From NCBI GenBank assembly GCA_012845835.1, contig JABAKD010000014.1, forward strand, positions 2,286,501-2,350,500: a stretch of DNA of 64,000 nt, read 5' to 3'. Each line of letters starts with the position of its first letter. Positions within the stretch are counted from its first letter, which is position 1. Source of the stretch: Undaria pinnatifida (lineage: Eukaryota; Sar; Phaeophyceae; Laminariales; Alariaceae). Positions 10,301 to 59,693 of the stretch are shown here, in pieces. The position numbers were made by a program, and so were the translations under genes. Under the pieces are notes generated by a model, which was not told where the DNA came from, made no database searches, and saw only the letters and a program-made list of their open reading frames with translations.

Positions 10301-10317
10301 GAATGCCATTTCGTTCT

Positions 10318-10556: not shown

Positions 10557-10670
10557 AGCCCAATAATAGTACTGATAGCACGGTGAAGGCGCACTGGCGT
10601 TTTTTTGCCTTACTACTGAGGGTGGTGCCTTCAGGAGTTCCAGTTATTATAAAAATGAAAATACACTCCA

Positions 10671-16869: not shown

Positions 16870-17215
16870 TCATCTCGCCGCCTCCCCGCCTGCCCCCACC
16901 GATACCGCCTCCGCGCTTGCATCCAACTCTACCAGCGCCGACGCTCCATCATCCCCCACCGCCCCTTTTTGCTCTGCCGCGTCCCCCCCCTTTATCCCTC
17001 CGCCCCCGCCTCCCCTGTCTCCCATATCAGCGGCACCCTGGTTTTCATCTTCAGGGCTGGGGGTGATAGTGGCTGGGGGGGTTCCCTTCTCCTGCTCGGC
17101 GTCGTCAATTTTTTTTGCGGAAATTGATGACCGTTCTGCCGAATTGACCGCGGAAAATTCTTCGGGTTCCGGCGCGAGTTCTGCGGCCACCACGTAGTCG
17201 AAACCCACCTCCACC
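16870..17215 (-). CDS. methyltransferase exon 8 and stop
   Basis: Acceptor CCTTGCAG. It encodes [20 protein letters not shown], a strand typical of methyltransferase C-termini, followed by a Glu/Ala/Gly-rich tail ending GGEAAR and TGA. Confidence 0.82.
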
Positions 17216-20200: not shown

Positions 20201-23200
20201 GTTTAGCGCTCAGTTCTATCCGTGGCCAGTAGTGGGATTATTACAAGAGCTTCTATAATACAAGTGAGTGACCAACGTGGAACCTGCCTAATAGCAAAGA
20301 GGTCTCCAAGGGGGTGGCCTGTGTCTGTAAACAGCCCCTATCTAGTAATACATAGCGTCGACGGCAAGACTATCTCACAACACCGGCATAATATGCGGTA
20401 CGGGATCTTACAGGCAAAACCCAGTATACGTATGCTAGATCATTCAGATCACACTTTTCCCACCCGGCAACATGATCTATAGGCCACACAGATGATCATA
20501 TAGACTAGGGATCCGTCAGAATCCGCCTTACGGTAGCCCCTTTTTACGAGACCCTGCCTAGTGCGGTGGGGCGGAGAGTTCCCATACATACCAACGCTCT
20601 TTGTCATATTACATCTGGCACTTTGGGGAGAACATGATTCGTTTTCTAGCAATCTACATGGCGTTTTTCAAGCGGGAGACAGTGCAGTAGCCCCTATTAA
20701 GGGATATAGGGTCCCTCATCGAGTGTTGCGTCCACCACAAGGGCCTAATGCCCTAAACGCGAGGAAATGGTGTGCAGAAATTCCTGAGTCTCCCATGTTT
20801 TTCGCTTATTTTTATAATACGGTACAGGTCCCTCTATAGAGCCGGTTGAGTAATGCCGGTTGTCGGCTGTAGTGCCTGTGAAATCGCTTGACACTTGGCA
20901 CACATGGGAACAACCAGTAGGGGCAGTATGCCGAGTAATGCCGGTTGCCGCTATAGTGCCGTTTTTTCCGGTTGGCACATACCGGCCCTATAGAGGGACC
21001 ACTGCCGTATTACCTGACGCTTGACGGTATGCTGCGCGTACAAGACGGACGTCTTCCTTGCTGAGACGAACGACGACGACAACAACAACAACAACACACG
21101 CATGATACCTGTCGCTTGACGGTGTGCTGCGCGTACAGCACGGGCATCTTCCTAGCCGAGACAACCACCATACCGGCCTTCCCCATTTGCCGAGTTATCC
21201 ACTCCAAGGGGTACTCCCTGCGGCAGCACAACAAACGGTGAAAAACAAAACTAAGCAAAAGCAAAAAATCTGGGATAAAAGATGTCTACTGCTGCAGTTA
21301 TAGTTACTATACACTCCAAGGGGTACATTCCCTGCCGCGGCACAGCTCACAAAAACAGATCGCACAAAATAAAACAGAAGAGGGGGGGGAAGACGAAAAC
21401 GGAAAAAAAAAAAGTAGCCGTGACTCCTACCAAAATACTCTGAGACGCAGATGAACTTTGACGGTGCGCGGCTACTGATTTATGTATACATAGTCAAACG
21501 CAGTTGTTTACACGTGTATCCGTGCCAAAGTACGACCAAAAACACGGTGAAACACGCGTAATTGCTTATTACCAGAGTACGTACAAAGTTTGACGGTACG
21601 CGGCTTAAGTCATTTCGACGGTACCCGATTTGAAGAGAAACCCACTCTAAGAGGTATTCCCTGCAGCGCCAAAGAGGCAAAAACACAACACGACACAAAA
21701 AGTCTGCTTCGCGAGTTGGTTCGAGCCGACCCCAAGTGAATTTTCGTGTGAAAAAACAAATACTTGCAGAAGAAAGCGCGTACGCAGCGTGCGCATCCTA
21801 TGCGCAAATCCGATGGGGGTCAACGAAGAAACAAAAATCTTGCGATAGAAATGACGGCATGCGCCGTCGTGGCGGGGGGCGAGTTAGTAGTGCCTGCTAT
21901 GTGACCCGTGACCTGTGATACGAAAAGAGAAGGGAGCTGGAGCCAAAAAAAAAGCAAAAACACGATGTAGACGGGATGGGGAAAAACAATAAAAGAAAAC
22001 CTGACCCACCGGTACGGACGGTGACCAGCGAGAAGAATACAGGAGTCACGGAGACGCGCCGCCTCACACACCAGTTCCGCCGCACCGCCTGCCAGAGCCG
22101 TGGAAAACCAACCGTGGCCGCCACCACCACGCCAGCAAAGAAAAAACGCATCAGACCAAGACGTGAAAAATCGTGCAGTTTACCCAGGTTTTATTAGTGG
22201 CACAAAGAAGAGTGATTGACCTACCTGGTATATCCTCCATGAGGACCCGAGCAACCCGCAGCACGCACGACCCATCAAACATCAAACGGTGTTCGCAAAG
22301 ATGAATTTCAACTACCTTCTCGATCTCGCCGCAAGGTGTCTTTTTCAGTTTTACATGAAAACAAGTACGTCCTTGTACAGAAAAAAAGGCAAAATATCAA
22401 CATGCGCAGGGTGAGACAGAACCAACACTACCATGATACTGCTGTAGTCAAACAATTGAGCCCCCCCCCAAAAAAAATAAAGTTAGAAGAAGCAAAACCA
22501 AAACATGCGTGGGATCAGCAGAGAGCAACAAAATTAATTTTTCAAGAGTAGTCTCGACACAAGGGACAGAGGCCTCGGCGTGCGCTACACTATAACACTT
22601 CGGCAAGTGGATGGCACTGTTACTCAACCGACGAGCATAAACCAAGATACCCGAAGCCGCTGCAGCTCTAGCAAAAGCTGCTGCAGCATTAGCCCTTTCA
22701 GCACCGCAGTCCCGACAGGGGGACACAACACTTGGAATTAGACTACGAAACAAAAATGGGAGTTGGAAAAGGGTTAAAACAATGTGTCAAATATTGAGGA
22801 AGACTAATGTTAGTCTGTCGGTAATACATTAGTTCACACATCGAACAGATCAGATCCCTCTTGATTTAGAACATGTCTTCCAGGGCAGATATGTCCCTGG
22901 TCTATATATGATCTGCATGACCTATAGATCATGTTGTTGGGTAAGAGCCGTGTGATCTGAACGATCTAGCACATGGTTCTTGGGTTGGATATGTACTGTT
23001 CAGATCCGGGATCTAGTATGTTCTGGATATCTACTACAGATATAGGGTCTACATCATCTAGATCGTGATCTGCTCGATGTGGGAGTCGTATGATCTGTAT
23101 GATCTAGGACATGTTTCCTGGGTTGTCATGTTGCCGGGGTAAGAGTCGGATGATCTGAACGATCCAGCACATGTTTCCTGGGTTGGACGTGTATTGCCAG

Positions 23201-25737: not shown

Positions 25738-25827
25738 GGCACCGTGGGGGTGGTGGGGGCGGTGGTGGAGGGGGGTTGGGGGTTGGGGAGCGGGAGGCCG
25801 GGGGGGGGGGGGGCGGCAACGCGAACT

Positions 25828-25885
25828 CATTTTATTGCTTGCCTTGTCATTTTTGACCGCGCATCCCTTTCGAGATGGAGGGGGC
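25828..25885 (-). repeat. C-tailed repeat family A, partial, beside methyltransferase exon 1
   Basis: The minus strand reads CTCGAAAGGGATGCGCGGTC, GACAAGGCAAGCAATAAAAT, then a C-rich run at 25815-25799, and then exon 1. Confidence 0.6.
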
Positions 25886-25908
25886 GAGTAGATGGAGGGG
25901 GCGAGTAG

Positions 25909-26010
25909 ATGGAGCGGGGGTGGAGGGACGAACTCTACCTTTGCTACCCTAAAAACTGCCCTATTCTCCCCGCGGCGACGGACAACTGCGTCAAGATGAT
26001 GGCCCGGGGG
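25909..26010 (-). pseudogene. echo of methyltransferase exon 1 head
   Basis: Minus strand CATCTTGACGCAG, then GGGGAGAATAGGGCAGTTTT and AGGGTAGCAAAGGTAGAGTTC, matches exon 1 (CATGTTGACGCAG, then GAGGAGAACAGGGCAGTGTT and AGGGTCGCGAAGGTAGCGTTC). A family A element and a G/C run separate the two copies. Confidence 0.8.
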
Positions 26011-27345: not shown

Positions 27346-27479
27346 TACTCCTGGTACATACTCGCAGAACACTCACAAGGAGTGCAAAGCGGTGCACAGC
27401 AGCAACGCCTAGCTTCTGGATAGGCGGGAGCTATGGACTATGAACACGTATCTATATGAGCCTATGAGTCTACTGCTGT

Positions 27480-29519: not shown

Positions 29520-30665
29520 ATGGCTGGACCAACACCACCAGCGTCGCCGTCCGGACGCGGTCGCGGTAAAGGCCGCAAGGACGAGAGAGGGGCATCTCCG
29601 GCTCGAGGGCGTGGGCGCGGTGGGCGCGGGGGCGCCGGGTCCCCAAGCACTGGCGGCCGGGGCAAAAGTGACGTTTCCTCGAGGCGTTCTTCCAGGGGGA
29701 CTGGGGCGGGGAGCGACGCGGCGCCGGCTGCGGCCTCCGACGCTTCTGATACTGCGGACGTGGAGGCGGCGGCGGCGGCGGACCCGGTAACCGACGCTGC
29801 TACTCCGGCCGCTACCGCCGCCGCTGCTGCTGCCCCAGCTGGTGGTGACGCCACGCCAGCTGCTGCTGATGCTAACGCTTCGCAAGCAGCGTTAACGGAG
29901 GGCGGTACCGCTACCCCTGATGATGTTGCGCCTGGCGGCGCCGACGCCACGGCTGCCGCTTCATCCGCTGCTAGCACTACCGCCGACGCTACCGTTACCG
30001 CAACCCCTGACGCCCCTGCCGTGGCAGAAGGAGAGACTACACCGACAAGCACAAGCGCGGACACGCCAACACCGACACCGACTTCACCTAGCGTTGGCGA
30101 CGCGCGCGGCCGATCCACCAGATCCAGCAACAGAAGGGGCCGCGGCGGGAGCCAAGGCCGCTCCCCCGGCCGGGTGAAATCCCCCGATCGCGGGGGGCGA
30201 GGCCGTGGAGCAAGTGGTGGTAGTGGGGGCGGGGGTAGAGATGGTGGGGGTGGGGGTAGGGGTCGGGGTGAGGGTCGGACCGCGCGAGGTGGAGTTGGAG
30301 CGGGTAGGGGACGAGGAAACACCGGGAAGGCGGGGAGAGGAAAGTCGCCGATTAGGGGTGGCCCAAGGATGGGGGGGGGGGTGAGGTCTGGGGGACCGGG
30401 GATGGGACCGGGGGGGCCGGGGATGGGACCGGGGGGGGCGGGGATGGGACCGGGGGGGGCGGGCATGGGACCGGGGGGAGCCGGGATGGGGCCGGGGGGG
30501 GCGGGAAAGGGGGTAGGGGCGGGGGCAGCTGGAGTGAAGCGCAAGCGAGCGGGTGGGCTGGTGACGATAACGGAAATTAAGGAAGATGAGCTGATGGCGG
30601 TGGCGAACGCAAACTGGGCCCGCGGGTCGAAAGCCGCTTCGAACGGGACGTTCAAGCCTAACCTG
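29520..30665 (+). CDS. AQR: AQR exon 1 (residues 1-382)
   Basis: Starts ATGGCTGG after an A-rich leader and ends CCTAACCTG before GTGAGT. Almost all of it is low complexity: GRG/RGG-rich, then Ala/Thr/Asp-rich, then RGG, then GPGMGPGG(A/P)GM repeats. Family-like sequence begins only near residue 350 ([18 protein letters not shown]). A 399-residue antisense frame over the same bases is a shadow of the GC-rich composition. Confidence 0.85.
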
Positions 30666-48600: not shown

Positions 48601-51600
48601 AAATGTAAGATGGGGAAATAATTAGATGGGTGCGTATGCTTTTTTTTTTTTTTTTTTCTTCGGTTCGGTTTCCGTTACAAAAAAGTTTTCGGGATTGGTT
48701 GTCCTTTTTTTCGGTTCGGTTTCCGTTACAAAAAAGTTTTGTTAGTGGTTGTCCTTTTTTTTTTAGTTTTAGTGCTTATTTGCCGGTTTTGGGGGCTGGC
48801 ATTGCGGAGGTCAAGCAGCATGATCTGAGGGAGAAAGTTCCTGCCGAGGTATGCTTGCAATTTTGGAGCAGTGGTCCCTCTATAGCGCTGGTGTGCGCCT
48901 GCCGGAACACCCGCATTGCAGCAGCGGCCGGCACTACTCTGCGTGCTGACCCTACCGGTTGTTTCCCCTATAGCGGCAACCGGCACTACCCCGCAAACTG
49001 ACACGACTGTTCTTTTCCACCTGTGTCAAGCGATTCCACAGGCATTCTAGCGGGTAGCCGGCACTATTCCGCATACTGATACCACTGGTGTTTTCTATCT
49101 GTGCCGAGCGATTTCACAGGCACTCTAGCGGGGAACCGGCACCACTCAACCGGCTGTAAAGAGGGACCTCTACTGCTGTACTTCGAAGTATATGAATAGA
49201 AACAGCAGAACGTAGAGGGAAAAAGGAAGAAGTAAAATAGTTGGGTCGGGGCTGATTCTTGTTTTGTTATGCTTTTGGTGTGAAGAGTTTTGTGTGGAGA
49301 CGGGCACGTGTATTTTGAGTGTGTTCGATTGTTTCCATGTGGCGTTGCCTTGGTTGTCCTTGGCTTGTTTTGCGTTGGCTTTAGCTTGGCGTGTTGGTGT
49401 TTGTACTCTGTTTTTTTTTCGTTTGTCGTGTTGGTGTTTGTACTCTGTTTTTTTTTCGTTTGTGTTCGTTTTTGGCCTTGCCTTTGTCTTCACTTTCTGG
49501 TAGCTGTTATTGCCATGGTTTTGCTGTGTTTCTGTTTTTTGTTTTTGTTGGCTTTGCCTTGCCTTGCCTTGCCTTGCCTTGCCTTGCCTTGCCTTGCCTT
49601 GGGTTGCCTTGCCTTGTTTGTCTCTTTCTCTCCATTTGTTTATTTTTCGTTTTATTTCTCTCAGTTATCTTTCTCTTTCTCTTTCTCTGCTTGTCAGACC
49701 GATGACAATGGAAAGCCGATAGTTTGACCAAAAAAAATCCAAACTTTTCTTGGGGTTATTTGCTAAAGATTAATGGGGTAACGTCGCTATGGGAGAAGAA
49801 CTTTTTTTTTTCTAGCTCTTTTTTTGGTCATATGCGGTCTCACGTTATTTTTGTGTTTTTTCCATCAAGCCTTGATCAACATTGTCCAACAAAGACGATT
49901 GACCTTCGATCTCGAGATGGAGGCAACCCATGGTCACTGCTCTTCGCTCCGGACAAGTCACATGAGTGTGGGTGACAGCGCTGAAGAGTTTATCACGATC
50001 CATGCCCTAGGGCGGGAGAGGTTGCTTGTGCTATCCTGTGGTCTTCCGTCACATCCTCTCAAAATTCTGTTTTTCGCCCGCTGGGATACAATAGAGAGTT
50101 TTTGTCTCAGTTTTCTACACACCAGCTGCCAAGTGTGCTTTAAACAGAAGCCTGATCGACGCCCGCCACAAATCACTGGCCGTAGAGTGAGCGCTGTACA
50201 CCGAGGGGGGGTCGGAGCCCCTGACGAGCTCGCCACGTTCAGAGTTCGCGACGCTGTCGTTGATTTCGTCGAACGAAGTGTGTGGAGAACACAAAATTGC
50301 GCCGCATCTAATCCAAATCTCTGCTTGAGAATTTCTCAAGCAGATGTTGGCCAAGATCGCCGCGAGAAATCGTTTTTTTCAGGAATTCTGGAAAATGTCA
50401 AAAAACAATTGTTCAAAATTCGGCCCATAGGCGACCGTTGAGGGAATGTTTGGCTGGGATCTTCGGGAATTTGAAACTTTTGGCCTTCCATTGTCACCGG
50501 TCTCAGGCTGATTCTACGTTCCCCCCCCCCAAAATCAGCGATTTTCTTAAACGAACGTTTTATGGCTGCTCGACACAAGGAAGGATACTACTGAAGAAAA
50601 GTATTAATGTAATTTCTTGTGTGCAAAGGTCTAACGATCGACGACGTCGGGGTGTCGCGGGACACCGTTTTGCAGGAGATACGACCGGGAGCTGGTTTTG
50701 AAACCGGCGATTTCGTTGAAGGAAAGTTGGGGGGGATACTGCTGTAGGACGACTCCTCCTCACTCATCCTTTTCCTTTTCCCCGCCCTTTTTATTTCGCT
50801 TCGAAAAACCGCTTGTCTCCTTTTTCTTTTCTTCTTTTTTAATGCTCTTCCCCTAAGGTTCTGGCCGAGGTGTCGCTTAATTTGGCCCACTTCGACAAAA
50901 TGCACATGAGGGAGGAGTGGGACTCCCTCAGGGAGCACGACGTCGTCTTCCTCATCTCGATCCAGTCCCCCCACGTGAGTCGCCCCGTTTTTACAACTTC
51001 GAGATGTGTCCTATAAACAACGCGATTGTTCTTAGTTAATCACAGCAGATAATTATCTCTCTTTTTTTTTTTCAAGAGACCGTGTTTTCTTATTTTATTT
51101 ACGAATTAAGATTTACGAATTAAGATTTGTTTTTAAATACCCCATCCAACCTTTACTAAACCCTTTTTTGGCCGCCCTTTGCAAAACCCTTTTTGCCACT
51201 TCCAACGTGATGTGACACTTATTTCCAAGTCGTTTGTCCGCAACAAAGTACGAATTGTTATGTTTGTTTCCATGCTTAAATCGACACACGACGCGTATGA
51301 AAATACGTGGAAGTGTGGTGAGCTAAAGCTTTATTTTTTACCCATCCGCCGGAGGATAAAAAAAGAAAAAAAAAAAAAAATCCATGTGCATGGGGGAGGA
51401 TTCAAACTCCCCTCGTGGAGCTCGACGCCGTCCTCCTTGTCTCGATCCAGTCCCCCCGTGTGAGTCGCCTACCCTCTTCCGTGCCCGTCAAAACCCTAAT
51501 GCATGTTTTGTTTTCTTATTAGCCCAGGCGATAAATTGGGTATTGAAGACTAGGATGAAACATTGAGCGGTGTTTTCCTCGCAGGTTTGGTTGGCGATTG

Positions 51601-54600
51601 TGTGTCAAGACGGTCCCGCTCTGTTTCTGCGTCGGACACAGGCTACTAATGGCATGGTGAAGTTGAACCCATTTGTTTTTCCTTCCGAGGGTGGCGGCTT
51701 GAAGAGGTGCATGCCTAGCCCAAAGACTGGCTTGTCAACAGAGTAAAGCTGAAAAGCGTAACGCGATGAACAGAAGCATGGCTCAGAGATATATATATAT
51801 ATACTTGTATATACATCAAAAACATCAACATTGAAAAAAATATTCCTGGTATGGTTTTGTTCCGACGATCTTGGGTTATAACCCCTTTAGAGCCCCCCAA
51901 AATCCCTCCCTATACTAAATTCAAGTAAATTTGTTTCCAAAAAGGGTTTCGAGTAGTGAAGGCGTTAAGGAACCTCCCCCCATTAGAGCCCCCCAAAATC
52001 CCTCCCTATACTAATTTCAAGTAAATTTGCCCCTAGAAAAGGTTTCGAGTAGTGAAGGCGTCAAGGAACCACCCCCCTTTAGAGCCCCCCAAAATCCCTC
52101 CCTATACTAACTTCAAGTAAATTTGCCCCTAGAAAAGGTTTCGAGTAGTGAAGGCGTCAAGGAACCACCCCCCATTAGAGCCCCCCAAAATCCCTCCCTA
52201 TACTAACTTCAAGTAAATTTGCCCCTAGAAAAGGTTTCGAGAAGTGAAGGCGTCAAGGAACCACCCCCCTTTAGAGCCCCCAAATCCCTCCCTATACTAA
52301 CTTCAAGTAAATTTGCCCCCAAAAAGGGTTTCGAGTAGTGAAGGATTAAGGAACCACCCCCCTTTAGAGCCCCCAAATCCCTCCCTATGCTAACTTGAAG
52401 TAAATTTGCCCTCAAAAAGGGTTTCGAGCAGTGAAGGCGTTAAGGAACCACCTGGTCATCCCGACAAAAAACAGCCTAAAAGTGCTACTGACGTATGCTA
52501 TGATACGGCAGATGTATGTACACCGTTTTTTTTTTCTGGGGCGCCTCGCTTGGAGAGGCCTGCCTGTACATGAACGGGAACGAAAAATCGAGTTTGATGA
52601 CATGACAAAACTGAAAGAGCATCCCGATCAAAAACTAAGAGAAGTTTATGGCCTGGGCTTTACGAGGCGTTCGGACTGGAAAACGGCAACGAAGTTTCGA
52701 CGATTTTGGGTCAAGGAGGAAGCCCGTCATTCAGAAAATGAAAAAAGCCAAAAAAAGGTATACCTTAGTACCTCTATCGTAGCACGCGTCGGAATGGTTC
52801 CCGGAATGGTCCCCGGAATAGTCCCCAACTCTTTCATCCCTTTAAAAAAAAAACAAGTAGCTTGTCTTCCGCATTCCGCAATAAAAGTATGATAGTTTGT
52901 CCGCGGAACAGAGGTGCGTCCGCGTGAACGTGGGTTGAGCCGTTTTCGTCGTGCTTCACTTGCCCACCCACAGCCAAGAACCTTGACCTTTTTTTTTGTT
53001 GTTCTTGCTTTATGGGCGTGCTCCGGCGTCGACACCCCTACCCCCCCCCGAAACACCCTCCAACCCCGCAGCCAACGCCAACCCCCAACCTGCCAACGCC
53101 CACTCCCCAAACCCCTACCTCCCAACCCCCCACCCCCTACCTCCAACTCCGCAAAGCCCAACCTCCCACTCCTTAAACTCCCACCCCCACCCCCAACCCC
53201 CTAACCCCTATCCCCTACCCCCAAATCCCCTACCCCCAAACCCCCTACCCCTAACCCCACAAGGCTCAACTCCCCACTCCCCTACCTCCAGCCACCCAAA
53301 GTCCAACCCCCTACTCCTCAAACTCCCATTCCCGACCCCGACCCCCTAACCCCTATCCCCTACCCCCCAACCCCCTACCCCTAACCCCACAAAGCTCAAC
53401 CCCCCACTCCCGTAGACTAGCGAGTAGCGAGAAAACGATCGCTATCCTAGGAGATAGATGGTGGCGGCTGACGGCGGAGCAGGACGGGGATGGGATAAGC
53501 AAACGATTTCTATGTAGTACCTGGTATATGGAAGAGGCGTAATGAGCGCCCCGAAGTGTTGGAGGTGTATCTATTAGGAGTAGGAACGGTGCTCCGTCTC
53601 CAAGGGGATGTGGGATCAATGGTCGAATGACTAAGGCAAGCAACAAATGAGTACGCCCCCCCTTAACATGCCCCCCTTAACATGCCCCCCCCCCCCCCCC
53701 TACGGTGCTCCGTCTCGAAAGAGATGCGTGGTCATCAGTCAAATGACTACGGCAAGCAACCAATGAGTACCCCCCCCCCCCCCCCCCCCCCCCCCGCCCC
53801 CCTCCCCTATCCCCATTCGCTCAACCCTCCAACCCCCAACCCCGCGTCCCCTTCCCCCGTTCTGCCTCCCGCCTGGTAATTTTGTTTACGCCGCGTGGTT
53901 GGATGCCTTGAGCAGGACGCCGAGGGCACCGGCATCCTCAACCTGCAGCAGCAGTGGCAGCAGCAAGCGGAGCAACAACAGCAGCAGATGCAGCAACAAC
54001 AGCACCATATGCAACACCCGCAGATGCAACACCCGCAGATGCCACACCCGCAGATGCAACACCCGCAGATGCAACACCCGCAGATGCAACACCCGCAGAT
54101 GCAACACCCGCAGATGCACATGCAATACAACGGACCGCCGCCGATAAACGGAAACCTCCAGCACCAACCTTTCCCGAACGGGCAGCAGAATAATGGCAAT
54201 AACAACGCTGGCCGAGGGTTTTCACAGGGAGGGAGGGGGCGCGGAGGCGGGCGTGGCGGGGGGAGGGGGGGGGAGAGGGGGAGGGGAGGCGACAGAACGG
54301 TGAAGGACGAGGAGGACCCTCTTTTCCCTGCAAGGTTGGTTGGGTTTGGTGCTGCCGTGCTTTTTCTGGGTTGTTGTTGGTGTTGTTGTTGGTGTTGTTG
54401 TTGGTGTTGGTGTTGGTGTTGGTGTTGGTGTTGGTGTTGGCGTTGGCGTTGTTGCTGTTGTTGTTTTTGTTTTTGTTATTGCTTGCTGCTGTTGCGGGTA
54501 CGTTTTTTTGGGGGGGGGGGTTGTCGCCGTCGGTGTTGTTGCTGTCGTTGTCGCTGCTGATGTTGCCCTCATCGTTGCTGCTGCCGTCGTTTTTTTTGCC

Positions 54601-57600
54601 GCTCTCGTTGTTTTTGGGATGTTTTAGTCGTTGTCGTCGTCGGTCGTTGCTGTTGCTGTCGGTGCCAATTTCGACGCCGAATGTTAACGCCATGGTTGCT
54701 TTATTGTTGTTTTGGTGGAGGACAGTGTTTGGGAAAAGTACGGAGAACGATCGTCACATTGTTTTTTGTGGTGGAGGGCGGGTTTTGAGAAAAGCACGAA
54801 GAACGATCGTCACACTGTTCTCCTTCATTTTATTTTTTGAACTGCTTTGGCCAGATACGGGGTGGTCGCTGTGCGTGGAGCCGAGGTGTACGAGCTGGCG
54901 GACGAGGAGGGCCACTTGCTCAACGACCCCGCTACACAGAAGGAGAGAGTGAGTCTTACCACTGGACGCGTGGTACGATACAGGTAGCACTTTTTGTTTT
55001 TGGTCTTATTTTTTTTTTATGGGTGATCCCTCCCTAAACTAACTTCAAGTAAATTTGTCCCCAAGAAGGTTTCGAGTAGTGAATGCATAACCCTTGAGAG
55101 CCCCAAAATCCCTCCCTATACTGAATTCAAGTAAATTCGTCCCCAAAAGGCTTTATAGGTGTGAAGGCGTTAAGGAGTACCCGTTATTCGGAAAAACAAT
55201 GGCTTTCTATCGTACCACGCGTCCTTTGAAAAAAAAAAATGGTTTGGGGGTGGGGTATATAGAGCTCCTCCTCGTAGTCTTTTTTTTTTTTTTTTTTTTG
55301 CGGTCGCCATGATGGTTATCGAGTTAGATCATATTGTGCGGGGTGGAGAACCCTAACTCCGCACAAGCGGAATGATCGCATCACGTATTAATAGTGTGAA
55401 TATGGTAAGGCACCCACGAGGCCGTTACATATTAATAGCAATACCCATTGCGGTCTCTGGAGTGGCCGCACCAGAAAACAAATTATAACTCATTGGCGCT
55501 GTCGTCCGTAAGCAAGAAAGTAGGCACAAGGTGCCGAAGTCCGTTTCGTTTTACGAGCGGTTCTTGGAAGGATGCGGTCTACCCTTCATGCGACTCGCCG
55601 AACACCTCACGGCGCTTAGCGCTTGGAGCAAGCAATGTCTGCCTGGTTGGTGAAAGCCCGGCGTGCTCCGTCCCGGCACAGTAGGGATGCGAGGGTCTAT
55701 GGTCATGCGACTACGGCCATGCACAAACTGAGGACACCCCCTCTTATTCTAAATCTAAGTAGTTTGTTCCCGTGTCGGGCGTGCGGCGCTAAAAAGGTCA
55801 CAGTAACCCAAATGGTCGGAAAACCATCGTTGTTTCTGAAATATGTGTATGTGTGCTTTTTGTAGACCTAGGCCATGCAAGGAATTTTATTGATCGGGTT
55901 AAGCGAAGCGTTCGTTTTTCCTCCCCAAAAAACAAACACAGGGGGGATGAGGTAGGTCCTCCTCCTGGTGACCGTAGCTTGCATCCAGGGGACGAGCACC
56001 ACGTGTTGCGACGCTTCTCACTTTTATTCCAAATGCCCGAGGGCTTTTTTCTTGGGTCATGATCCGACCCGCTGGTTCCGACCAGGAGGTTTTTGCAATC
56101 TCGGTGGGTCGAGTCCGGCCACGGGCCAGGAGGTTTTTTAAGTCTCACGGCTTGGCTTAGGAGGGATTCAGTGCTCATGGGTCGGGTCGGGTCGGTTCAC
56201 GCTGAGAAGCCCTGAAATGTGTTTGCCGTTTTCTGTTTTTTTTTTGTTGAGCCTTGGGGCGGAAACAAACGCGCCGGTGCTGGGGAACAAGCGAAGCCCC
56301 TCTGGTTGAGGGTGGGGATCAAACGATTTTGTTGGATTTTTCATTTTTGTGCTGGTATAACTTTTCGTTGTATTATTTTTTCGCACGCTTTTGCTTTACA
56401 CAAATTGGATTGTTTCGCCTTCTGTTTTTGAATCAGCTGTGCACAGGAAAACGTGCCGCCGGTGCGTGAGCAACTCGCGCGCCCTACGGCGGAGATTGGA
56501 TCACACCAATTCGAAACTGTGCCCATTCACATGTATTTTTATAAATTTGTATTCATGTTTGTCTCACTTTTTTCAAAGAAACACAAATCGTTTTCTGTTT
56601 TGAGTCGTTTTTTCTCAGATAAACGCGCCACCGGTGGGCAACTAGCGCAAGCTCCGGCGTGGGCTGGACCAAATCATTCGAACTTGTCCTTTTTTATGTA
56701 TTTTTATGAATCTTTTGTCTCACTTTTTACTAAAATGTATGCTTGGTATATTTTTCTATTTTGGATAGTTTTTGCTCAGAAAACGCGCCGTCGGCGGGGA
56801 ACACGCGCACCCCCCTCCGGCCGAGGCTGTGGGCCGATTTTGTTGGCAGTTGTTCATTTTCAGTCGTTTTGAGTCATTATTGGTCATCGTTGTTCTTGTA
56901 TTATCTACTTTTGGTCAATTTTAAGCAATTTTGTCGTTTTTGTTCATTGTCATTCGCTGATGTTCGTTTTTGTTCGTTTTTACACGTGTTATTTCAATTT
57001 TGTTCATTCTCTAACTTTTGTTTTTTACTGCCATGATGCGTGCTTGTCATTGCACAGAAGAACGCGCCACCGGTGGGCAACAAGCGCACCCTCCGGCTGC
57101 GGCTGGACCCTGCCCAGTACCACGCGGACATGAGGGCAGCGGACATGGTCTACGAAACCGTCAACCTTTTGGTGCGGCGCAACGCCAAGGAGAACAACTT
57201 CAAGGGCATCCTGGAGACCATTCGGTGGGTTTTATGAATGTCACCCTCCGAAGCGTTGTGTCGCGGTATACGTAATTGTATCGACGTTACGTAACACGTT
57301 ACTGCTGTTGATGTTCATACTTACGAGTATGTTTTTTTTCTTTCTGCCTTGTTATTTATTTTATTATTTTGCCGACCCAAACCCCAACCCCACCCCGGCC
57401 CTCTGACCACCTACTGCCTCAGGGACCTGATGGAAACCCCAGCGATGGGGCAAGCCGTGCCGCCTCAACCCTCCCCCGCCGCCCCACCCCTCCCCACCCC
57501 ACCCTATCCCCACCCCCACCCTATCCCCACCCCAACCCCCCTCCCCAACCCCTAGCTACCTACCGCCTCAGGGATCTGATGGAACATGCCAGCCCCCTAC

Positions 57601-59693
57601 CTAATCCTCTTTTCCCCCGCCCCACCCTCACGTCCACCAAGCCATGCCGCCTCAACCCCCTCCTCCCTCCCCCCTCCCCCTCCCCACCCGCACCGTCACC
57701 CCCACCCCATCCCCACCCCAACCCCTTCCCACCCCCAACTCCCAATGCCCAACCCCCACCCCTAACCACCTACAGCGTCAAGGACCTGATGGAACAGAAA
57801 CCCCAACCCCCTACCTAACCCCCCCGCCCCACCCTCACGCCCACTCCCACCCCTGTCTGCCTACCTCCTCAGCGACCTGATGAACACTTCAGCGGTGGGG
57901 CAAGCCATGCCGCCCTGGCTGCACGATGTGTTCCTGGGGTATGGTGACCCTGCGGGGGCTCATTACCGAAACTTGCCCGAGCAGCTGGTGGAGGATGTGG
58001 ACTTTGGGGACACTCTGCTCGACACGGTCCACGTTAGGGAGGTGCGCGTTTCTCTTTTTTCTTGGTCATTTGGCGTTGGGGCTTCATCCCCTTATGCCCC
58101 TACTACCCAGACCTGCTCTTTTCTCTTCCCTGACCACCCCTCTCCCCTCTTGCCTGCCTGGTCACGCCTGTTCCCTGCTTCACCTACCCCGGCCTCTTGT
58201 CCCCTGCCCCCTACCAAATATCTGCACCTTCACCTCTGTCCCCTGCCTCATCACCCGTATCGCGTGCGACACCCCTCTATCCCCCTCCACCTGGCTACCC
58301 CTTTTCCCTGATATCTCTATCTGCCTCATCTCCCTCCCCTATTCCCTGCCACATACACGCTTGTCCCGTATCTAATCACCTCTGTCCCCTGCATAAACGC
58401 CCCTGCCCCCTGCCCCATCACCCCTAACCCATACTCCATAACGCCTGCCTTGAACGATATCGCCAACGGCAACATCCAGGGTCCCTACCTAATCACCCCC
58501 ATCCCCTAACCTAATAACTACAGTATTCCAAAACGCCTGTTTTGAACTCCATCCGCTGTAGCGTCTATTTCATACCCAGATATTGTGGGACTGCCCCTGG
58601 CAGGTTCTCTCTGTGCCATTATGGTGTGGAGGACACATCGAGGTGGGTCGGTACCTCGGGTCAGCGCGGAGCGGAGTCTGAGACTTCTGATGACCTTGGA
58701 GTTGTGTCAAAATGAGGCGGTACTATGTAGGGGAAAGGGACCTCGTATTCACAAGATCCCTATCGTCTAACTCGTCAACGCTAACGCGCCACCGCTATAT
58801 ATGTCCCAAATCCCCTACCTAATCACTGTTTCGTAACACCTGTTGTCAGCGATATCTCGAAGGACTACCTAGTTCCCCCTATCCCCTCCCGTACCTCATC
58901 ACCCCTATCCTCCACCCCCTATCTCCTACCCAATCACTTCCAGCTATCTCATATCTCTACCTCATCACCCTTATTCCCTATTCCCCACCTCAAAACCCCT
59001 GTCTCCTATCCCCTACCTAATCATCCCCATCCCCTATCCCCTACCTCATCACCGCTATCCCCTATCTCTTACCTCATCACCGCTATCCCCTATCCCCTAC
59101 GTCATCACCACTATCCCCTATGCGTATCCCCTATCTCTACCTCATCGCCCTTATCCCCTATCCCCTACCTCAAAACCCCTGTCCCCTATCCCCTACCTAA
59201 CCACCCCTATTCCCTATCCCGTACCTCATCACCCCTATCCTCTATCCCCTACCTATTCACCCCTGTCCCTTATCCCCTATTTCATCACCCCTATCCCCTA
59301 CCTTATCACCCCTATCCCCTATCCCCTACCTCATCACCCCCATCCCCTATTCCCTACCTCATCACCCCTATTCCCTATTCCTAATCACTACCACGTATTC
59401 CTTATCCCCTGCTCTCAATTATATCGTCAATGGCCACCTAGTACCCTCCCCACTATTCCCTATTACCTCCCTAATCGCCCCTATATCCCCTATCCCCTAC
59501 CTATCCCCCACCTCATCACCCCTGTCCCCTATTCCATAACGCCTGCTTTGGACGATGGCAACCATTGCAGGGTTTCCCGGGGGCGGCGTTCAAGTTCGCT
59601 GACGAGTCCGGGAAGGCTCTTTCACCCGATGAGGTTTCGCCGCCGTTCAGGCTTTCTTTTTCGTCAGAACTTCCGGTGGCGGGCGCGGAACCG
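29520..59693 (+). CDS. AQR: Aquarius/IBP160 homologue (intron-binding spliceosomal helicase), 5' part, 18 exons
   Basis: The product is recognised from collinear blocks of the Aquarius N-terminal half, including [74 protein letters not shown] and [17 protein letters not shown]. Aquarius is a nuclear SF1 (Upf1-like) RNA helicase that binds intron RNA upstream of the branch site within the spliceosome. Eighteen exons with GT-AG borders join in one frame to give 1495 residues. The modelled part ends where the family enters its RecA helicase domains, so the catalytic half lies right of the window. The start at 29520 follows an A-rich leader; the frame stays open to 29328 but that part is unlike the family. 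Three low-complexity regions roughly double the usual length of this half: residues 1-365 (RGG, Ala, GPGMGPGG repeats), about 510-680 (Lys/acidic) and 1172-1310 (Gln, HPQMQ repeats, RGG). Identity is firm. Exon edges rest on phase and homology. Confidence 0.93.
31100..31330 (+). repeat. GGTGGGTGGGT-rich low-complexity tract in AQR intron 1
   Basis: Degenerate GGTGGGT/GGTTGGT repeats. The antisense frames rich in THPPTHPP are translations of it. Confidence 0.7.
31744..31917 (+). CDS. AQR: AQR exon 2 (residues 383-440)
   Basis: Acceptor CCCTCCCAG, donor ACG|GTGAGT, phase 0 at both ends, 58 codons. It encodes [15 protein letters not shown], one of the most conserved N-terminal Aquarius blocks. 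A weaker copy of the acceptor and exon head lies at 31643-31705. Confidence 0.95.
31955..32015 (-). repeat. C-tailed repeat family A, partial, 40 bp after the exon 2 donor
   Basis: Plus strand GCGTTGGTTGCCTTAGTCGT, then GCATCCCTTTCGAGACAG: the reverse complement of the family A 3' module, followed by long G-rich runs. Confidence 0.6.
32365..32550 (+). repeat. pyrimidine minisatellite upstream of the exon 3 acceptor
   Basis: About eight imperfect units of CCTATCCCCGCCCTTGTCC lead directly to CCCTGCAG, forming a very long polypyrimidine tract. Confidence 0.7.
32557..33372 (+). CDS. AQR: AQR exon 3 (residues 441-712)
   Basis: Acceptor CCCTGCAG, donor CAC|GTGAGT, 272 codons, phase 0. Family sequence at both ends ([13 protein letters not shown] and [16 protein letters not shown]) brackets a long Gly/Lys then Glu/Asp-rich insertion that ends in a basic stretch. 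Confidence 0.9.
33747..33884 (+). CDS. AQR: AQR exon 4 (residues 713-758)
   Basis: Acceptor CACCAAAG, donor CTCAAG|GTAATT, 46 codons, phase 0. It encodes [20 protein letters not shown], matching the family block after HCFN. The last bases plus the donor are repeated about twenty times downstream. Confidence 0.95.
33885..34475 (+). repeat. tandem array of the exon 4 donor (CTCAAG|GTAA), about 20 copies
   Basis: Units of about 16-30 bp read (T)TACCTCAAGGTAAC followed by a T-rich spacer such as TTCGTGTG. They repeat the last bases of exon 4 and its 5' splice site. A sub-array (34157-34240) has five GTGTTACCGTAAGGTAAT units. Many copies keep AAGGTAA. Confidence 0.85.
35404..35490 (-). mobile_element. 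short MITE, TTAAC-CCCTTTA family, AQR intron 4
   Basis: A reverse copy with CCCCTTTAGAGCCCTC, ACTAAATCCAAGTAA, GGGTTTCCGG and GGGGTTAA. Confidence 0.65.
35555..35845 (+). repeat. C-tailed repeat family A, one and a half copies, before AQR exon 5
   Basis: Two copies of GGTGCTCCG(T)(G/C)TCGAAAGGGATGC end near 35633 and 35832, each followed by a C run. The second lies about 45 bp before the exon 5 acceptor. Confidence 0.65.
35879..35993 (+). CDS. AQR: AQR exon 5 (residues 759-797)
   Basis: Acceptor CCACAAG, phase 0 start, phase 1 end. The donor is a tandem GTGGTGAG: using the first GT (35991) or the second (35994) adds or removes one Gly without changing frame. It encodes [20 protein letters not shown], matching the family helix before CERFIE. 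Confidence 0.88.
36062..36260 (+). repeat. isolated unit of the 6020-7150 satellite, AQR intron 5
   Basis: It has TTTTCCACACCACGCGGGAG, GGTGTCGACCCGGGGAATCG and TTCGTCCCCGGGTGCG, matching the satellite core. Confidence 0.55.
36466..36516 (+). repeat. (ACAG)n microsatellite, AQR intron 5
   Basis: About twelve ACAG/ACGG/GCAG tetramers; the rest of the intron has no recognised feature. Confidence 0.85.
36885..37032 (+). CDS. AQR: AQR exon 6 (residues 797-846)
   Basis: Acceptor CATATTAG, donor ACCAG|GTACAT, ends in phase 2. It encodes [21 protein letters not shown], equivalent to the CERFIELMIDLEALLPTR region of the family, after an acidic/Gly insertion. Confidence 0.93.
38079..39595. mobile_element. 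Mutator-like (MULE) or foldback element, about 245-bp inverted repeats
   Basis: The first about 245 bp (38079-38325) recur inverted at 39352-39595, for example AACAGCAGCGCAAACACC against its complement. AGCGGGGGTC flanks both ends (38069-38078 and 39596-39605), a 10-bp target duplication. Long inverted repeats with a 9-11 bp duplication are typical of Mutator-like elements. The 1-kb core has no transposase-like frame, so the copy is non-autonomous. It lies inside AQR intron 6. Confidence 0.75.
39741..39793 (+). pseudogene. echo of AQR exon 7 head, copy 1
   Basis: TTCGCCGGCAG|GCGTTTTTTCTTTGTAT continues as CTCTGGAGGATAT, against the real GTCTGCAG|GCGTTTCCTGTGCGTGG and TTCTGGAGGATAT. The acceptor AG is intact. 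Confidence 0.82.
39937..39990 (+). pseudogene. echo of AQR exon 7 head, copy 2
   Basis: TTCCACGCATGCATCGGCAG|GCGTTTTCCGTACGTGGTTC against the real TTCCACAAATGCGTCTGCAG|GCGTTTCCTGTGCGTGGTTC. The match extends about 20 bp upstream of the acceptor. Confidence 0.85.
40121..40244 (+). CDS. AQR: AQR exon 7 (residues 846-887)
   Basis: Acceptor GTCTGCAG, donor TATCTG|GTGAGA. It encodes [20 protein letters not shown] and [14 protein letters not shown], equivalent to RRWFNTILDDSHLL and LFSQLLDMLKFY. Two decoy copies of its head lie upstream at 39741 and 39937. Confidence 0.95.
40865..40925 (-). repeat. SINE body fragment, AQR intron 7
   Basis: AAGGACGTCAGCCGTGAGTT and TGACGAATTTCAGGTCAATA form the reverse of the SINE body at 5520-5560, ending 90 bp before exon 8. 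Confidence 0.65.
41015..41173 (+). CDS. AQR: AQR exon 8 (residues 888-940)
   Basis: Acceptor GAGAGCAG, donor GGGAAG|GTGATT, 53 codons, phase 0. It encodes [18 protein letters not shown], near-identical to the Aquarius [14 protein letters not shown] block. Confidence 0.97.
41185..41410. repeat. cryptically simple TTCGATATT tract, AQR intron 8
   Basis: Degenerate TTCGATATTCGATATT and TTGATATTTTG words. No other feature. Confidence 0.7.
41579..41696 (+). CDS. AQR: AQR exon 9 (residues 941-980)
   Basis: Acceptor TTTCTCAG, donor GAAG|GTATTA, phase 0 start, phase 1 end. It encodes [20 protein letters not shown], the weakly conserved helices after SSVAAGK. Confidence 0.88.
42096..42901. mobile_element. 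PIF/Harbinger-type element, 806 bp, 56-bp inverted repeats, TTA target duplication
   Basis: The left end GGCCGTTTCTTATAGCATTG recurs inverted at the right end with one mismatch over about 56 bp. TTA flanks both ends (42093-42095 and 42902-42904). Termini starting GGCC with a 3-bp TWA duplication are hallmarks of PIF/Harbinger. A minus-strand frame (42688-42239) lies inside. The copy is in AQR intron 9 and looks non-autonomous. Confidence 0.82.
42239..42688 (-). CDS. 149-codon open frame inside the Harbinger-type element
   Basis: The minus-strand frame reads [39 protein letters not shown] and [12 protein letters not shown], then a basic SRAVKRRR stretch. No DDE triad or other transposase motif is visible. 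It may be a remnant of an accessory or N-terminal transposase segment, or a chance frame; the acidic then basic ending looks coding-like. Start and function are uncertain. Confidence 0.3.
   Translation of the reverse strand: MRRARAHTHTHIGLPHMRAAVPALLGLLGVARGLAYELGLPSGRVVHHQMAATAREKAGVDVSAVFATTLAAFHLQQQRSVATWDLILQDYEDELEPDTEDDDMSRAVKRRRVVCCVWSAASALRLYVCIGLLCAAAAAVWCWVLRALF
43250..43325 (-). repeat. SINE body fragment, AQR intron 9
   Basis: TTTCAAGGACGTCAGCCGTG, AGTTCGACGAATTTCAGGTC and CATCTTTGCAAGCTGCG form the reverse of the body at 5505-5560. Confidence 0.7.
43540..44064 (+). mobile_element. two tandem MITE copies, TAGCCCCCC-ended family, in AQR intron 9
   Basis: Two head-to-tail copies (43537-43785 and 43787-44064) share GAGTGATTCTTACTACGATAG, a long C run, TTTCATGGCTGCTCGACACG, GACGACGTCGGGTTGGCAAG and CCGGCGATTTCGTTGAAG. 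The right copy ends GGGGGGGCTACCGCAGTAAG, inverted relative to the left end. Confidence 0.75.
44482..44574 (+). mobile_element. short MITE, TTAAC-CCCTTTA family, both TTAA ends intact
   Basis: It runs from TTAACCCTGTTACAACTGG through TTAGTATGGGGAGGGGTT to CTCTAAAAGGGGTTAA. With TTAA at both edges and CCC-type termini it fits a piggyBac-like MITE, though no transposase copy is present. Confidence 0.7.
45147..45449 (-). CDS. candidate small secreted protein nested in AQR intron 9 (unproven)
   Basis: A 100-codon minus-strand frame starts [20 protein letters not shown], a strong signal-peptide-like stretch with a plausible cleavage after GICRSA. It continues [20 protein letters not shown] and [20 protein letters not shown]. 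No family is recognised and there is no expression or splice evidence. A chance frame is quite possible. Confidence 0.22.
   Translation of the reverse strand: MHFLGSGVQSLSIFAVLLLLLLLCSGICRSATVDVPDMYTGRAAHEFLLHYASPIWGACCGTAFKIHGLTHTMGTTYQVFGVGPFYLPPKGITNIVPLCS
45631..45740 (+). CDS. AQR: AQR exon 10 (residues 980-1016)
   Basis: Acceptor GCCGTGCAG, donor CAGCAG|GTATGT. It encodes [19 protein letters not shown], equivalent to [20 protein letters not shown]. Phase 1 in and phase 0 out agree with its neighbours. Confidence 0.93.
45786..45975 (-). repeat. C-tailed repeat family B, nearly full, 46 bp after the exon 10 donor
   Basis: A reverse copy: GTACTCAGTTTGTGCATGGC, CGTAGTCGTATGACCATAGA, ATCCCTACTATGCCAGGACG, AGCGCGAAGCGCCGTGAGG and CGGACTTCGGCACCTTGTGC. 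A G run separates it from the donor. Confidence 0.7.
46621..46674 (+). pseudogene. echo of AQR exon 11 head, copy 1
   Basis: GTGAACGAGCTGCCGCTGTA and CCCTAACGAAG, then TGGGACGAGAACCTT, is nearly identical to exon 11. The acceptor has changed from CAG to CGG, so it is dead. Confidence 0.9.
46781..46832 (+). pseudogene. echo of AQR exon 11 head, copy 2
   Basis: CTATGTCAG|GTGGATGAGCTGCCGCT with CCCTAACGAAGCCTTCTTGT, reading [17 protein letters not shown]. The acceptor is intact; a C run replaces the rest of the exon. Confidence 0.9.
46938..46996 (+). pseudogene. echo of AQR exon 11 head, copy 3
   Basis: GAGCGAGCTCCCTTGGTACC and TCACGAAGCTCTTCTGTGGG, then ACGAGAACCCTGTT. The acceptor is lost (GCGATT) and a frameshift is present. 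Confidence 0.85.
47096..47238 (+). CDS. AQR: AQR exon 11 (residues 1017-1064)
   Basis: Acceptor CACGGCAG, donor CTCAG|GTGAAC, ends in phase 2. It encodes [19 protein letters not shown] and [17 protein letters not shown], both highly conserved in Aquarius. Three echoes of its first 50 bases lie upstream. Confidence 0.97.
47290..47490 (+). repeat. minisatellite GTGCGGTTACCGTTAGGGCGGGGTCCCAGTTTA, AQR intron 11
   Basis: About five units of roughly 30-35 bp share GTGCGGTTACCGTTAG, GCGGGGTCCCAGTTTA. Confidence 0.75.
47512..47540 (+). pseudogene. echo of AQR exon 12 head (short)
   Basis: GGAGCTTCAATCTCTTCCGG against the real GGAGCTTCAATCTGTTCCGA. About 27 bp match; the acceptor has become GCGG. 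Confidence 0.7.
47588..47700 (-). repeat. C-tailed repeat family B, partial, AQR intron 11
   Basis: A reverse copy between two long G runs: ATGCATGACCGTAGTCGTAT, CCCTCGCATCCCCACTGTGT and ACCGACCAGGCAG. Confidence 0.65.
47925..47990 (+). repeat. SINE body fragment, AQR intron 11
   Basis: CGCAGCTTACAGAGATGAGT, ATCGAACTCACGACTGACGT; a related fragment is at 48440-48520 in intron 12. Confidence 0.55.
48134..48338 (+). CDS. AQR: AQR exon 12 (residues 1064-1132)
   Basis: Acceptor GTTGGCAG, donor GCTGAG|GTATGT. It encodes [28 protein letters not shown] and [12 protein letters not shown], matching the family in order. Its tail is echoed at 48790 and its head at 47512. Confidence 0.97.
48790..48848 (+). 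pseudogene. echo of AQR exon 12 tail and donor
   Basis: GGAGGTCAAGCAGCATGATC and GGGAGAAAGTTCCTGCCGAG|GTATGC against the real AGAGGTCAAGAAGCCTAACC and GGGAGAAAGTTCCTGCTGAG|GTATGT. The donor GT is intact. Confidence 0.88.
48861..49175 (+). mobile_element. MITE (GGTCCCTCTATAG family) in AQR intron 12
   Basis: It starts GCAGTGGTCCCTCTATAGCG and ends AAGAGGGACCTCTACTGCTG, so the ends are inverted. The interior has two tandem GAGCGATTTCACAGGCACTC-type units. It lies just downstream of the exon 12 tail echo, as the 20815 copy lies beside an exon 6 tail echo. Confidence 0.7.
49552..49620 (+). repeat. (CCTTG)n microsatellite, AQR intron 12
   Basis: Eleven or so CCTTG units with one variant, within T-rich intron sequence. 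Confidence 0.9.
50512..50752 (+). mobile_element. MITE, TAGCCCCCC-ended family, in AQR intron 12
   Basis: It shares AATCAGCGATTTTCTTAAACG, TTTATGGCTGCTCGACACA, ACGACGTCGGGGTGTCGCGG and AACCGGCGATTTCGTTGAAG with the other copies. It ends about 105 bp before the exon 13 acceptor. Confidence 0.7.
50858..50974 (+). CDS. AQR: AQR exon 13 (residues 1133-1171)
   Basis: Acceptor CCCCTAAG, donor CCCCAC|GTGAGT, 39 codons, phase 0. It encodes [18 protein letters not shown], equivalent to DEWEGLRKHDVCFLITV. Its tail plus donor is echoed at 51381-51475. Confidence 0.95.
51381..51475 (+). pseudogene. echo of AQR exon 13 tail and donor
   Basis: ATGTGCATGGGGGAGGATTC, GACGCCGTCCTCCTTGTCTC and GATCCAGTCCCCCCGTGTGA against the real ATGCACATGAGGGAGGAGTG, GACGTCGTCTTCCTCATCTC and GATCCAGTCCCCCCACGTGA. 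The match runs past the donor into GTCGCC. Confidence 0.88.
51878..52443 (-). repeat. tandem array of six TTAAC-family MITEs, about 94-bp period, AQR intron 13
   Basis: Six units each run from ACCCCCCTTTAGAGCCCCC through CCTCCCTATACTAACTTCAA to TTCGAGTAGTGAAGGCGT, starting near 51881, 51976, 52071, 52166, 52263 and 52355. The dispersed 90-bp MITE has become a satellite here. Confidence 0.85.
53035..53405 (+). repeat. CCCCTAACCCC/CCCCAAACC low-complexity tract, AQR intron 13
   Basis: Degenerate C-rich repeats such as CCCCTACCCCCAAA. The frames rich in Pro/Asn/Thr are translations of it. They are too irregular to be telomeric. Confidence 0.7.
53405..53780 (+). repeat. C-tailed repeat family A, full plus partial copy, before AQR exon 14
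   Basis: GACTAGCGAGTAGCGAGAA, CGATCGCTATCCTAGGAGAT, GGAACGGTGCTCCGTCTC and CAACAAATGAGTACG then a C run (53405-53660). A second 3' module follows at 53700-53770 with a C run of more than 30 nt. It ends about 110 bp before the exon 14 acceptor. Confidence 0.7.
53916..54334 (+). CDS. AQR: AQR exon 14 (residues 1172-1311), low-complexity insertion
   Basis: Acceptor TGAGCAG, donor GCAAG|GTTGGT, phase 0 start and phase 2 end. It encodes a Gln-rich stretch, about seven tandem HPQMQ-type pentapeptides (a 15-bp DNA repeat at 53995-54120), a polar linker and an RGG region. Human Aquarius has no comparable insertion at this point, so this is lineage-specific or shared only with relatives. Confidence 0.85.
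54360..54600 (+). repeat. GTTGTTGGTGTTG low-complexity tract, AQR intron 14
   Basis: Degenerate GTTGTT/GTTGGT repeats. The Val/Leu- or Asn/Thr-rich frames on either strand are repeat translations. No other feature is seen in this intron. Confidence 0.75.
54855..54948 (+). CDS. AQR: AQR exon 15 (residues 1311-1342)
   Basis: Acceptor TGGCCAG, donor GAGAGA|GTGAGT. It encodes [20 protein letters not shown], equivalent to VGLVYVRGCEIQGMLDDKG of the family. Confidence 0.93.
55025..55172 (-). mobile_element. one partial and one full TTAAC-family MITE, AQR intron 15
   Basis: The partial copy is 55025-55073 (CTCCCTAAACTAACTTCAAG). The fuller copy is 55088-55172 (ACCCTTGAGAGCCCCAAAAT to GTGAAGGCGTTAAGG). 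Confidence 0.65.
55510..55735 (+). repeat. C-tailed repeat family B, full copy, AQR intron 15
   Basis: GGCACAAGGTGCCGAAGTCC, ACGAGCGGTTCTTGGAAGG, CATGCGACTCGCCGAACACC, GCTTGGAGCAAGCAATGTCT and CCATGCACAAACTGAGGACA. Confidence 0.75.
56265..56834 (+). pseudogene. four echoes of AQR exon 16 head (56265, 56440, 56611, 56770)
   Basis: Each copy resembles AAGAACGCGCCACCGGTGGG and CAACAAGCGCACCCTCCGGC. They read AACGCGCCGGTGCTGGGGAA, AACGTGCCGCCGGTGCGTGA, AACGCGCCACCGGTGGGCAA and AACGCGCCGTCGGCGGGGAA. The last three retain GCACAG or CTCAG just upstream. Spacing is about 170 bp, and intron sequence such as GTATTTTTATAAATTTGTAT is repeated with them, so the unit includes intron plus about 50 bp of exon. 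Confidence 0.9.
57058..57224 (+). CDS. AQR: AQR exon 16 (residues 1343-1398)
   Basis: Acceptor TTGCACAG, donor ATTCG|GTGGGT, ends in phase 2. It encodes [34 protein letters not shown] and ILETIR, near-identical to the family block. Four echoes of its head lie upstream. Confidence 0.97.
57411..57802 (+). pseudogene. three echoes of AQR exon 17 head (57411, 57562, 57765)
   Basis: CTGCCTCAG|GGACCTGATGG, CCGCCTCAG|GGATCTGATGG and CAGCGTCAA|GGACCTGATGG against the real CTCCTCAG|CGACCTGATGAAC. The first extends through CAGCGATGGGGCAAGC and CGTGCCGCCT. Two of three keep the acceptor AG. Confidence 0.88.
57873..58041 (+). CDS. AQR: AQR exon 17 (residues 1398-1454)
   Basis: Acceptor CTCCTCAG, donor AGGGAG|GTGCGC. 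It encodes [15 protein letters not shown] and [16 protein letters not shown], matching NLMN...PDWLHDIILGYGDPSSAHY. Three echoes of its head lie upstream. Confidence 0.97.
58434..58487 (+). pseudogene. echo of the AQR exon 18 acceptor region
   Basis: CCATAACGCCTGCCTTGAAC, GGCAACATCCAG|GGTCCC against the real CCATAACGCCTGCTTTGGAC, GGCAACCATTGCAG|GGTTTC. Weaker copies lie near 58527-58565, 58826-58860 and 59395-59450. The repeated part is mostly intronic. Confidence 0.65.
58840..59560 (+). repeat. minisatellite CCCCTATCCCCTACCTCATCA, AQR intron 17
   Basis: About twenty-five imperfect units of 20-30 bp form a pyrimidine-rich tract that runs to the exon 18 acceptor. Confidence 0.85.
59571..59693 (+). 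CDS. AQR: AQR exon 18 (residues 1455-1495), last exon seen
   Basis: Acceptor CATTGCAG, donor GAACCG|GTGAGA, 41 codons, phase 0. It encodes [11 protein letters not shown] and [12 protein letters not shown], equivalent to SFPGHNVKV and PPFRITFPV. The following helicase exons are not visible in the window, apart from a doubtful candidate at 60319. Confidence 0.93.

Follow-up and report, generated by a model that had tools for sequence, protein, structure and literature searches.

Diverged copies of exon edges in introns of AQR and five other Undaria pinnatifida genes, probably formed by local direct duplication of non-coding DNA

The window, the whole stretch of 64,000 nucleotides that was analysed (C20:2286501-2350500), comes from a genome of 511,146,479 bases in 68 contigs with about 50% GC. 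It holds the 5′ part of the gene for Aquarius (AQR; Table 1), whose 18 modelled exons join to a translation of 1495 aa without a stop and are separated by introns of 374-3934 bp, every one of them with GT-AG ends. Conserved pieces of this translation match solved Aquarius structures (4pj3, E 1.6e-87), and the helicase half of the protein is expected 3′ of the modelled exons. Exon 3 carries a long insertion of low complexity (32600-33240) that is acidic and lysine-rich, exon 14 combines an MQHPQ repeat (54009-54118; a 15-bp DNA repeat in 7 copies, 97%) with an RGG stretch, and intron 6 contains a 236-bp inverted repeat (88%) with arms at 38086-38318 and 39356-39588.

The neighbour of AQR on the minus strand is a putative methyltransferase-like gene, its match to PF13489 scoring 23.9 bits against a cut-off of 27 (E 4e-5). 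Its exons were located by reading translations; Pfam scans of the raw six-frame translations of 16-29 kb gave no match, probably because the exons are short. A copy of the head of its exon 7 lies upstream at 21308-21326 (edge test, p 1.5e-7), with another near 21650 found by eye, and a copy of the exon 7 tail with the donor lies downstream at 21011-21067 (57 bp, 86%). These copies bear out what an earlier sequence-only reading of this DNA had reported for introns 6 and 7 of the gene. The same claim for intron 5 fell below the threshold of the edge test, with the start of exon 6 uncertain, and the repeat reported beside exon 1 is seen by eye in translation only. The other exon listed for this gene can be read either as terminal (TGA) or as continuing to a donor.

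Such copies of exon edges, here called echoes, are frequent in the introns of AQR. We compared the first 40 (head), last 40 (tail) and middle 40 bases of each AQR exon with the upstream and downstream introns, using a 1500 bp flank at both gene ends and obtaining p-values from dinucleotide-shuffled introns (Gumbel fit to 50-100 shuffles in all edge tests; 15-25 shuffles for the copy-rate profiles and random 40-mers given below). On the expected side, that is upstream for heads and downstream for tails, 7 of 36 edges had a copy at p<1e-3 (heads of E7, E11, E12, E16 and E17, tails of E12 and E13). None of the 72 wrong-side and mid-exon controls reached this level, and two of them, the E3 tail against its upstream intron and the E11 middle against its downstream intron, reached p<0.01.

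Echoes had been claimed for ten AQR introns, and the edge test places copies of the adjoining exon edges in seven of these at p<1e-3, namely introns 6, 10, 11, 12, 13, 15 and 16. Intron 4 also stands, with a short edge: its donor-centred query (p 1e-6) includes about 8 exonic bases, and the minisatellite at the start of this intron takes in the last bases of exon 4. The claim did not hold for intron 1, where junction-centred queries found no supported edge copy (p 0.4 and 0.02), nor for intron 17, where the repeat match to such a query consists of intron sequence only, without an exon edge. Intron 6 has a second, acceptor-centred copy near 39924 (junction-centred query, p 4e-9), 4 copies of the exon 16 head were counted in intron 15, and the first of the two exon 17 head copies in Table 1 retains its AG.

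Table 1. Genes, exons and exon-edge copies located in the window
Feature	Position	Strand	Evidence or remark
AQR (Aquarius), 5′ part, 18 exons	29520..59693	+	spliced alignment, open frame, PDB match 4pj3
Minisatellite of ~24 bp at intron 4 start, with last bases of exon 4 and donor (CAAG/GTAA, slash at junction)	33885..34463	+	
Exon 7 head copy in intron 6	39514..39539	+	p 1.6e-4
Array at intron 10 end and exon 11 head, four ~160-bp units	46596..47153	+	
Exon 12 head copy in intron 11	47513..47535	+	p 1.2e-6
Exon 12 tail and donor copy in intron 12	48791..48853	+	63 bp, 79%; p 3e-7
Exon 13 tail and donor copy in intron 13	51389..51469	+	81 bp, 81%; p 6e-11
Exon 16 head copy in intron 15	56616..56670	+	55 bp, 85%; p 1e-11
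Copies of intron 16 end and exon 17 head	57376..57464, 57734-57794	+	76%, 81%; p 2e-12
Methyltransferase-like gene, exon 7	21109..21217	-	
Methyltransferase-like gene, exon	19160-19288	-	diverged copies downstream, 18491-18634 and 18289-18408

The array at the end of intron 10 displays the anatomy of an echo most fully. Each unit consists of the stretch before the acceptor and about 58 bp of the exon 11 head, and runs of C separate the units. Only the last unit (47066-47153) continues into the true exon 11, which starts at 47096; the first unit is 77-82% identical to the other three, and the intronic copies still align to human AQR across 19-25 residues. A genome search, which skips common words, returned no further match for the first unit. 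A dispersed mobile element as the source of this unit is not supported, that word-skipping search having reported local matches only.

The pattern extends well beyond this locus. Our sample comprised AQR, PRPF8 (modelled with 46 exons), RPB1, EEF2, a POLR3A-like and an EFTUD2-like gene, with 302 edges and 150 introns on five contigs; all gene models are predictions, and those outside AQR come from spliced alignment to human proteins. A POLR1A-like gene (C29), modelled alongside RPB1, was left out before counting for its poor model, and exons shorter than 55 bp were omitted, with the gene split at that point (two in the POLR3A-like gene and one each in RPB1 and EEF2). Pooled over the six genes, 41/302 edges (17/151 heads, 24/151 tails) had a copy on the expected side at p<1e-3, compared with 0/302 wrong-side controls (Fisher 2e-13) and 5/302 mid-exon controls (Fisher 1e-8); all five mid-exon matches fall in exons that are also echoed at the edge on the same side. 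PRPF8 contributed 17/90 expected-side, 0/90 wrong-side and 2/90 mid-exon matches, and RPB1, EEF2 and the POLR3A-like and EFTUD2-like genes together 17/176, 0/176 and 3/176. The 41 echoes include two that are very short, SNU_4 with 13 bp and EEF2_9 with 17 bp. The sequence-only reading had proposed self-alignment of edges and internal exon segments as a refutation test, and in these six genes edges were matched far more often; its statement that the polarity never reverses also holds in this sample at p<1e-3. It had further singled out the intron-binding factor Aquarius as a notable host; PRPF8 and the POLR3A-like gene show the same echoes, and the identity of the host looks like coincidence. 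Its observation of echoes is confirmed in part.

Echoes occupy 38/150 introns, with marked differences between genes (PRPF8 17/45, RPB1 4/31, EFTUD2-like 2/20), noted at C35:10403001-10463000. Across the 150 introns we found no association of echoes with base composition (GC 0.484 in echo introns and 0.483 in the others, p 0.91) or with G4 motifs (14/38 echo introns vs 41/112 others, p 1.0), and neither was retained as a candidate driver. Echo introns are longer (medians 1068 vs 670 bp, p 6e-4), as expected because a longer intron offers a larger target and duplications add length.

With 71-92% identity to the true edge, the extended copies are not a recent assembly duplication, in agreement with the sequence-only reading. 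They lie at a median distance of 238 bp (range 32-2255), which was taken as an upper bound for the length of the duplicated unit in assessing exon depth. The exonic part has a median of 44 bp and reaches 108-146 bp in 4/41 copies; these depths come from local alignments, which shorten the copies and bias the values downward, and in 4/41 cases the alignment had settled on intronic sequence instead. Copies extending at least 60 bp into the exon number 12/41, where uniform breakpoints predict 25, and 0/5000 simulations were as shallow as the observed set. Many alignments cross the junction from exon into intron, for example at PRPF8 exons 5, 13 and 17; in one set of extended alignments 10/17 were excluded, the query having matched itself. 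Homology of the intron flank was found at p<0.01 in 17/40 echoes and was non-significant in 23/40, so that a strictly tandem structure can be stated for some echoes only; the intronic parts of old copies may have diverged. Mismatches between copy and exon fall at codon positions 1, 2 and 3 in 22/232, 14/226 and 35/227 cases, and the splice dinucleotide is retained in 20/30 copies that reach the edge, both of which are compatible with copies that evolve neutrally next to an exon under constraint. The predicted structures of the modelled genes use one intact exon, and the AQR frame is open.

The frequency of copies around splice junctions has to be read against that of the surrounding DNA. In 131 introns of at least 350 bp, 40-mers were scored for copies in the adjacent or same intron. 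Well inside introns 18-21% of them have a local copy, and in the intron bases adjoining the junctions 12-15%. The outermost 40 exon bases reach 16% at donors and 12% at acceptors, and the rate drops to 3-4% at an exon depth of 40-80 bp and to 0-2% at 80-120 bp. From the exon interior to the edge the counts are 0/88, 5/121 and 21/131 on the donor side, followed outward in the intron by 19, 25, 23, 24 and 26 of 131; on the acceptor side they are 2/89, 4/124 and 15/131, followed by 16, 19, 26, 24 and 27 of 131. The shape of the profile was unchanged with 57 introns, and non-adjacent introns yielded only 0-5 matches of 88-131. Random intronic 40-mers have same-intron copies in direct orientation in 60 and inverted orientation in 13 of 300 cases. 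The corresponding counts are 76 and 7 of 300 in six random 5-kb stretches, which are unannotated and in which mobile elements may raise the copy rate, and 24 and 6 of 200 in the first 16.8 kb of the window. Coding sequence gave 1 direct and 0 inverted copies among 200 random 40-mers. Splice junctions are not duplication hotspots, because copy rates are equal or higher inside introns and high in random stretches. Local direct duplication, seen in introns and random stretches alike, looks like a property of non-coding DNA generally, and exon edges appear to sit on the shoulder of this landscape, where duplicated units overrun the exon ends. As the true edge evolves slowly, echoes should remain recognisable for longer than pairs of intronic copies, and edges are probably duplicated less often in reality than intron interiors.

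We therefore favour, with a probability of about 0.82, the explanation that local direct (tandem) duplication of non-coding DNA, with units that sometimes straddle splice junctions, gave rise to the echoes. Duplication would act locally and in direct orientation on stretches some tens to hundreds of bases long, and a unit straddling a junction would copy a few tens of exon bases together with the splice site. Only the copy still attached to the remainder of the exon would then go on coding. The polarity follows logically and needs no separate rule: given tandem duplication and the need for one intact exon, spare head copies end up upstream and spare tail copies downstream. Copies reaching more than about 60 bp into the exon are rare, perhaps because an exon piece of more than about 50 bp that retains its splice site may be taken up as a pseudo-exon, so that such copies would be removed; duplications confined to exons or spanning them entirely would change the protein and be eliminated by selection, and the remaining copies would decay neutrally. 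At the DNA level, slippage, template switching and unequal exchange are candidate mechanisms. A uniform process leaves the difference between PRPF8 and the EFTUD2-like gene unexplained. The earlier interpretation, that junction-spanning segments undergo repeated local tandem duplication, is thus supported in part: the process is recurrent, local and of one polarity, and a special role of junctions finds no support, intronic rates being the same or higher.

A process linked to splicing or transcription, such as R-loops or lariat intermediates, that preferentially duplicates junctions would account for the excess of edge copies over mid-exon copies. We regard it as unlikely, for the profile has no peak at the junction (18-21% deep in introns, 12-16% at exon edges) and 76/300 random 40-mers in the unannotated stretches have direct copies as well. 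Retention of the copies as functional decoys that regulate splicing, or as alternative exon ends, seems less probable still, even though AG or GT is often preserved and the intron 10 copies match the human protein. The retained fraction of splice dinucleotides does not exceed what we roughly estimate for neutral copies, about 80% at about 10% divergence. Synonymous change confined to the true exon would by itself give a codon bias of approximately the size seen (36/458 at positions 1 and 2, 35/227 at position 3), and the echo rate is not above the intron background.

The complete absence of wrong-side matches argues strongly against frequent ectopic insertion and against whole-exon duplication. 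Inserted copies should also have reached the far intron, which is nearly as near because the exons are short. Decayed tandem duplications of whole exons, as in mutually exclusive exons, of which only the edges remain, could have left the four deepest copies; they would, however, also have put head copies downstream, and mid-exon copies are rare, which makes this origin very improbable. Least probable of all is an artefact of assembly or haplotype. False duplications can occur in draft assemblies and we found no specific support for them here, whereas the copies differ from each other as well as from the true edge and the pattern recurs on five contigs. Local direct duplication of non-coding DNA thus remains our preferred explanation.

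Growth of introns by minisatellites is a known phenomenon, to which the 24-bp minisatellite at the start of AQR intron 4 corresponds; most echoes differ from it in being low-copy, long in unit and diverged. The closest parallel is sequence or exon stuttering on chicken dot chromosomes, described in 2026 (PMC12954441). Introns there contain local direct repeats that are imperfect and measure tens to hundreds of bases, some taking in the lateral part of an exon with its donor or acceptor while the exon itself stays intact. Intergenic DNA is affected too, the median is 4 copies with an exon part of 36 bp, and 190/236 stuttering introns lie on the GC-rich dot chromosomes, where they make up 190/5,572 introns. 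In birds the phenomenon is associated with GC-rich sequence or G4 and with extensive variation of intron length between individuals (PMC12954441). The echoes resemble chicken stuttering in the local direct copies found within introns (60 direct and 13 inverted of 300; median echo distance 238 bp), in the involvement of intergenic DNA, in the lateral exon fragments with splice site in the adjacent intron beside an intact exon (41/302), in their strictly local origin (0-5 matches of 88-131 in non-adjacent introns) and in the median exon part (44 bp here, 36 bp in chicken). They differ in being spread over 38/150 introns on five contigs with a median of 1 detectable copy, although the screens used different thresholds and the rates are not directly comparable, and in showing no association with the GC content or G4 motifs of the introns.

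In a potato RdRp gene, a tandem duplication over the 3′ end of an intron and the 5′ end of the next exon created an intron (PMC4974935); this was one recent event that altered the exon-intron structure, whereas here many diverged copies leave the predicted structure intact. A review (PMC3443670) presents a model in which tandem duplication of an exonic AGGT segment gives new introns. It shares with our data the supply of splice signals by local tandem duplication and differs in that our copies lie in existing introns. The suggestion that the habit was undescribed does not stand, since chicken stuttering (PMC12954441) and the junction-crossing duplication in potato (PMC4974935) came earlier. 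For algae, none of the titles listed in literature searches that covered few subscription journals describes exon-edge echoes, and the accessible part of a 2025 paper on Ectocarpus transposons (PMC12477816) makes no mention of them.

What is new here is the spread of echoes over five contigs of a genome distant from birds, with no detectable link to GC or G4. They add a second, distant lineage with exon-edge echoes, in genes as well as in random stretches, and their occurrence without the GC or G4 context proposed for birds narrows the mechanism. Because the exon partners are under selection while the copies decay, the source and the ancestral state of each echo can be read. Echoes also provide a natural setting in which to test how the spliceosome passes over decoy junctions nearly identical to the true ones, and local duplication becomes a candidate cause of long introns. 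More tentatively, and with the odds somewhat against it, stuttering could be more than a peculiarity of bird dot chromosomes, namely a way in which non-coding DNA grows throughout the genome, whatever its GC content, in a distant eukaryotic lineage, probably the brown algae. It would build long introns and continually create spare splice sites, and selection would limit the copied exon part to about 60 bp, a ceiling that might be read as a footprint of exon definition.

The window contains other repeats as well. A dispersed element of about 80-96 bp (CCCCTTTAGAGCCCCCCAAAATCCCTCCC...), present in both orientations and in places tandem, forms a satellite- or MITE-like family; it occurs at 51882-52452 (6 copies) and 19340-20020 (about 4 copies), with further sites near 11770, 13675, 14350, 35400, 44490, 55026, 62117 and 62640. 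A 255-bp tandem pair (94%) with a run of 27 C occupies 43531-44039 and has relatives at 9008-9268, 10311-10560 and 50504-50755, and a GTTGT-like pentanucleotide array of 163 copies at 63185-63997 reaches the end of the window.
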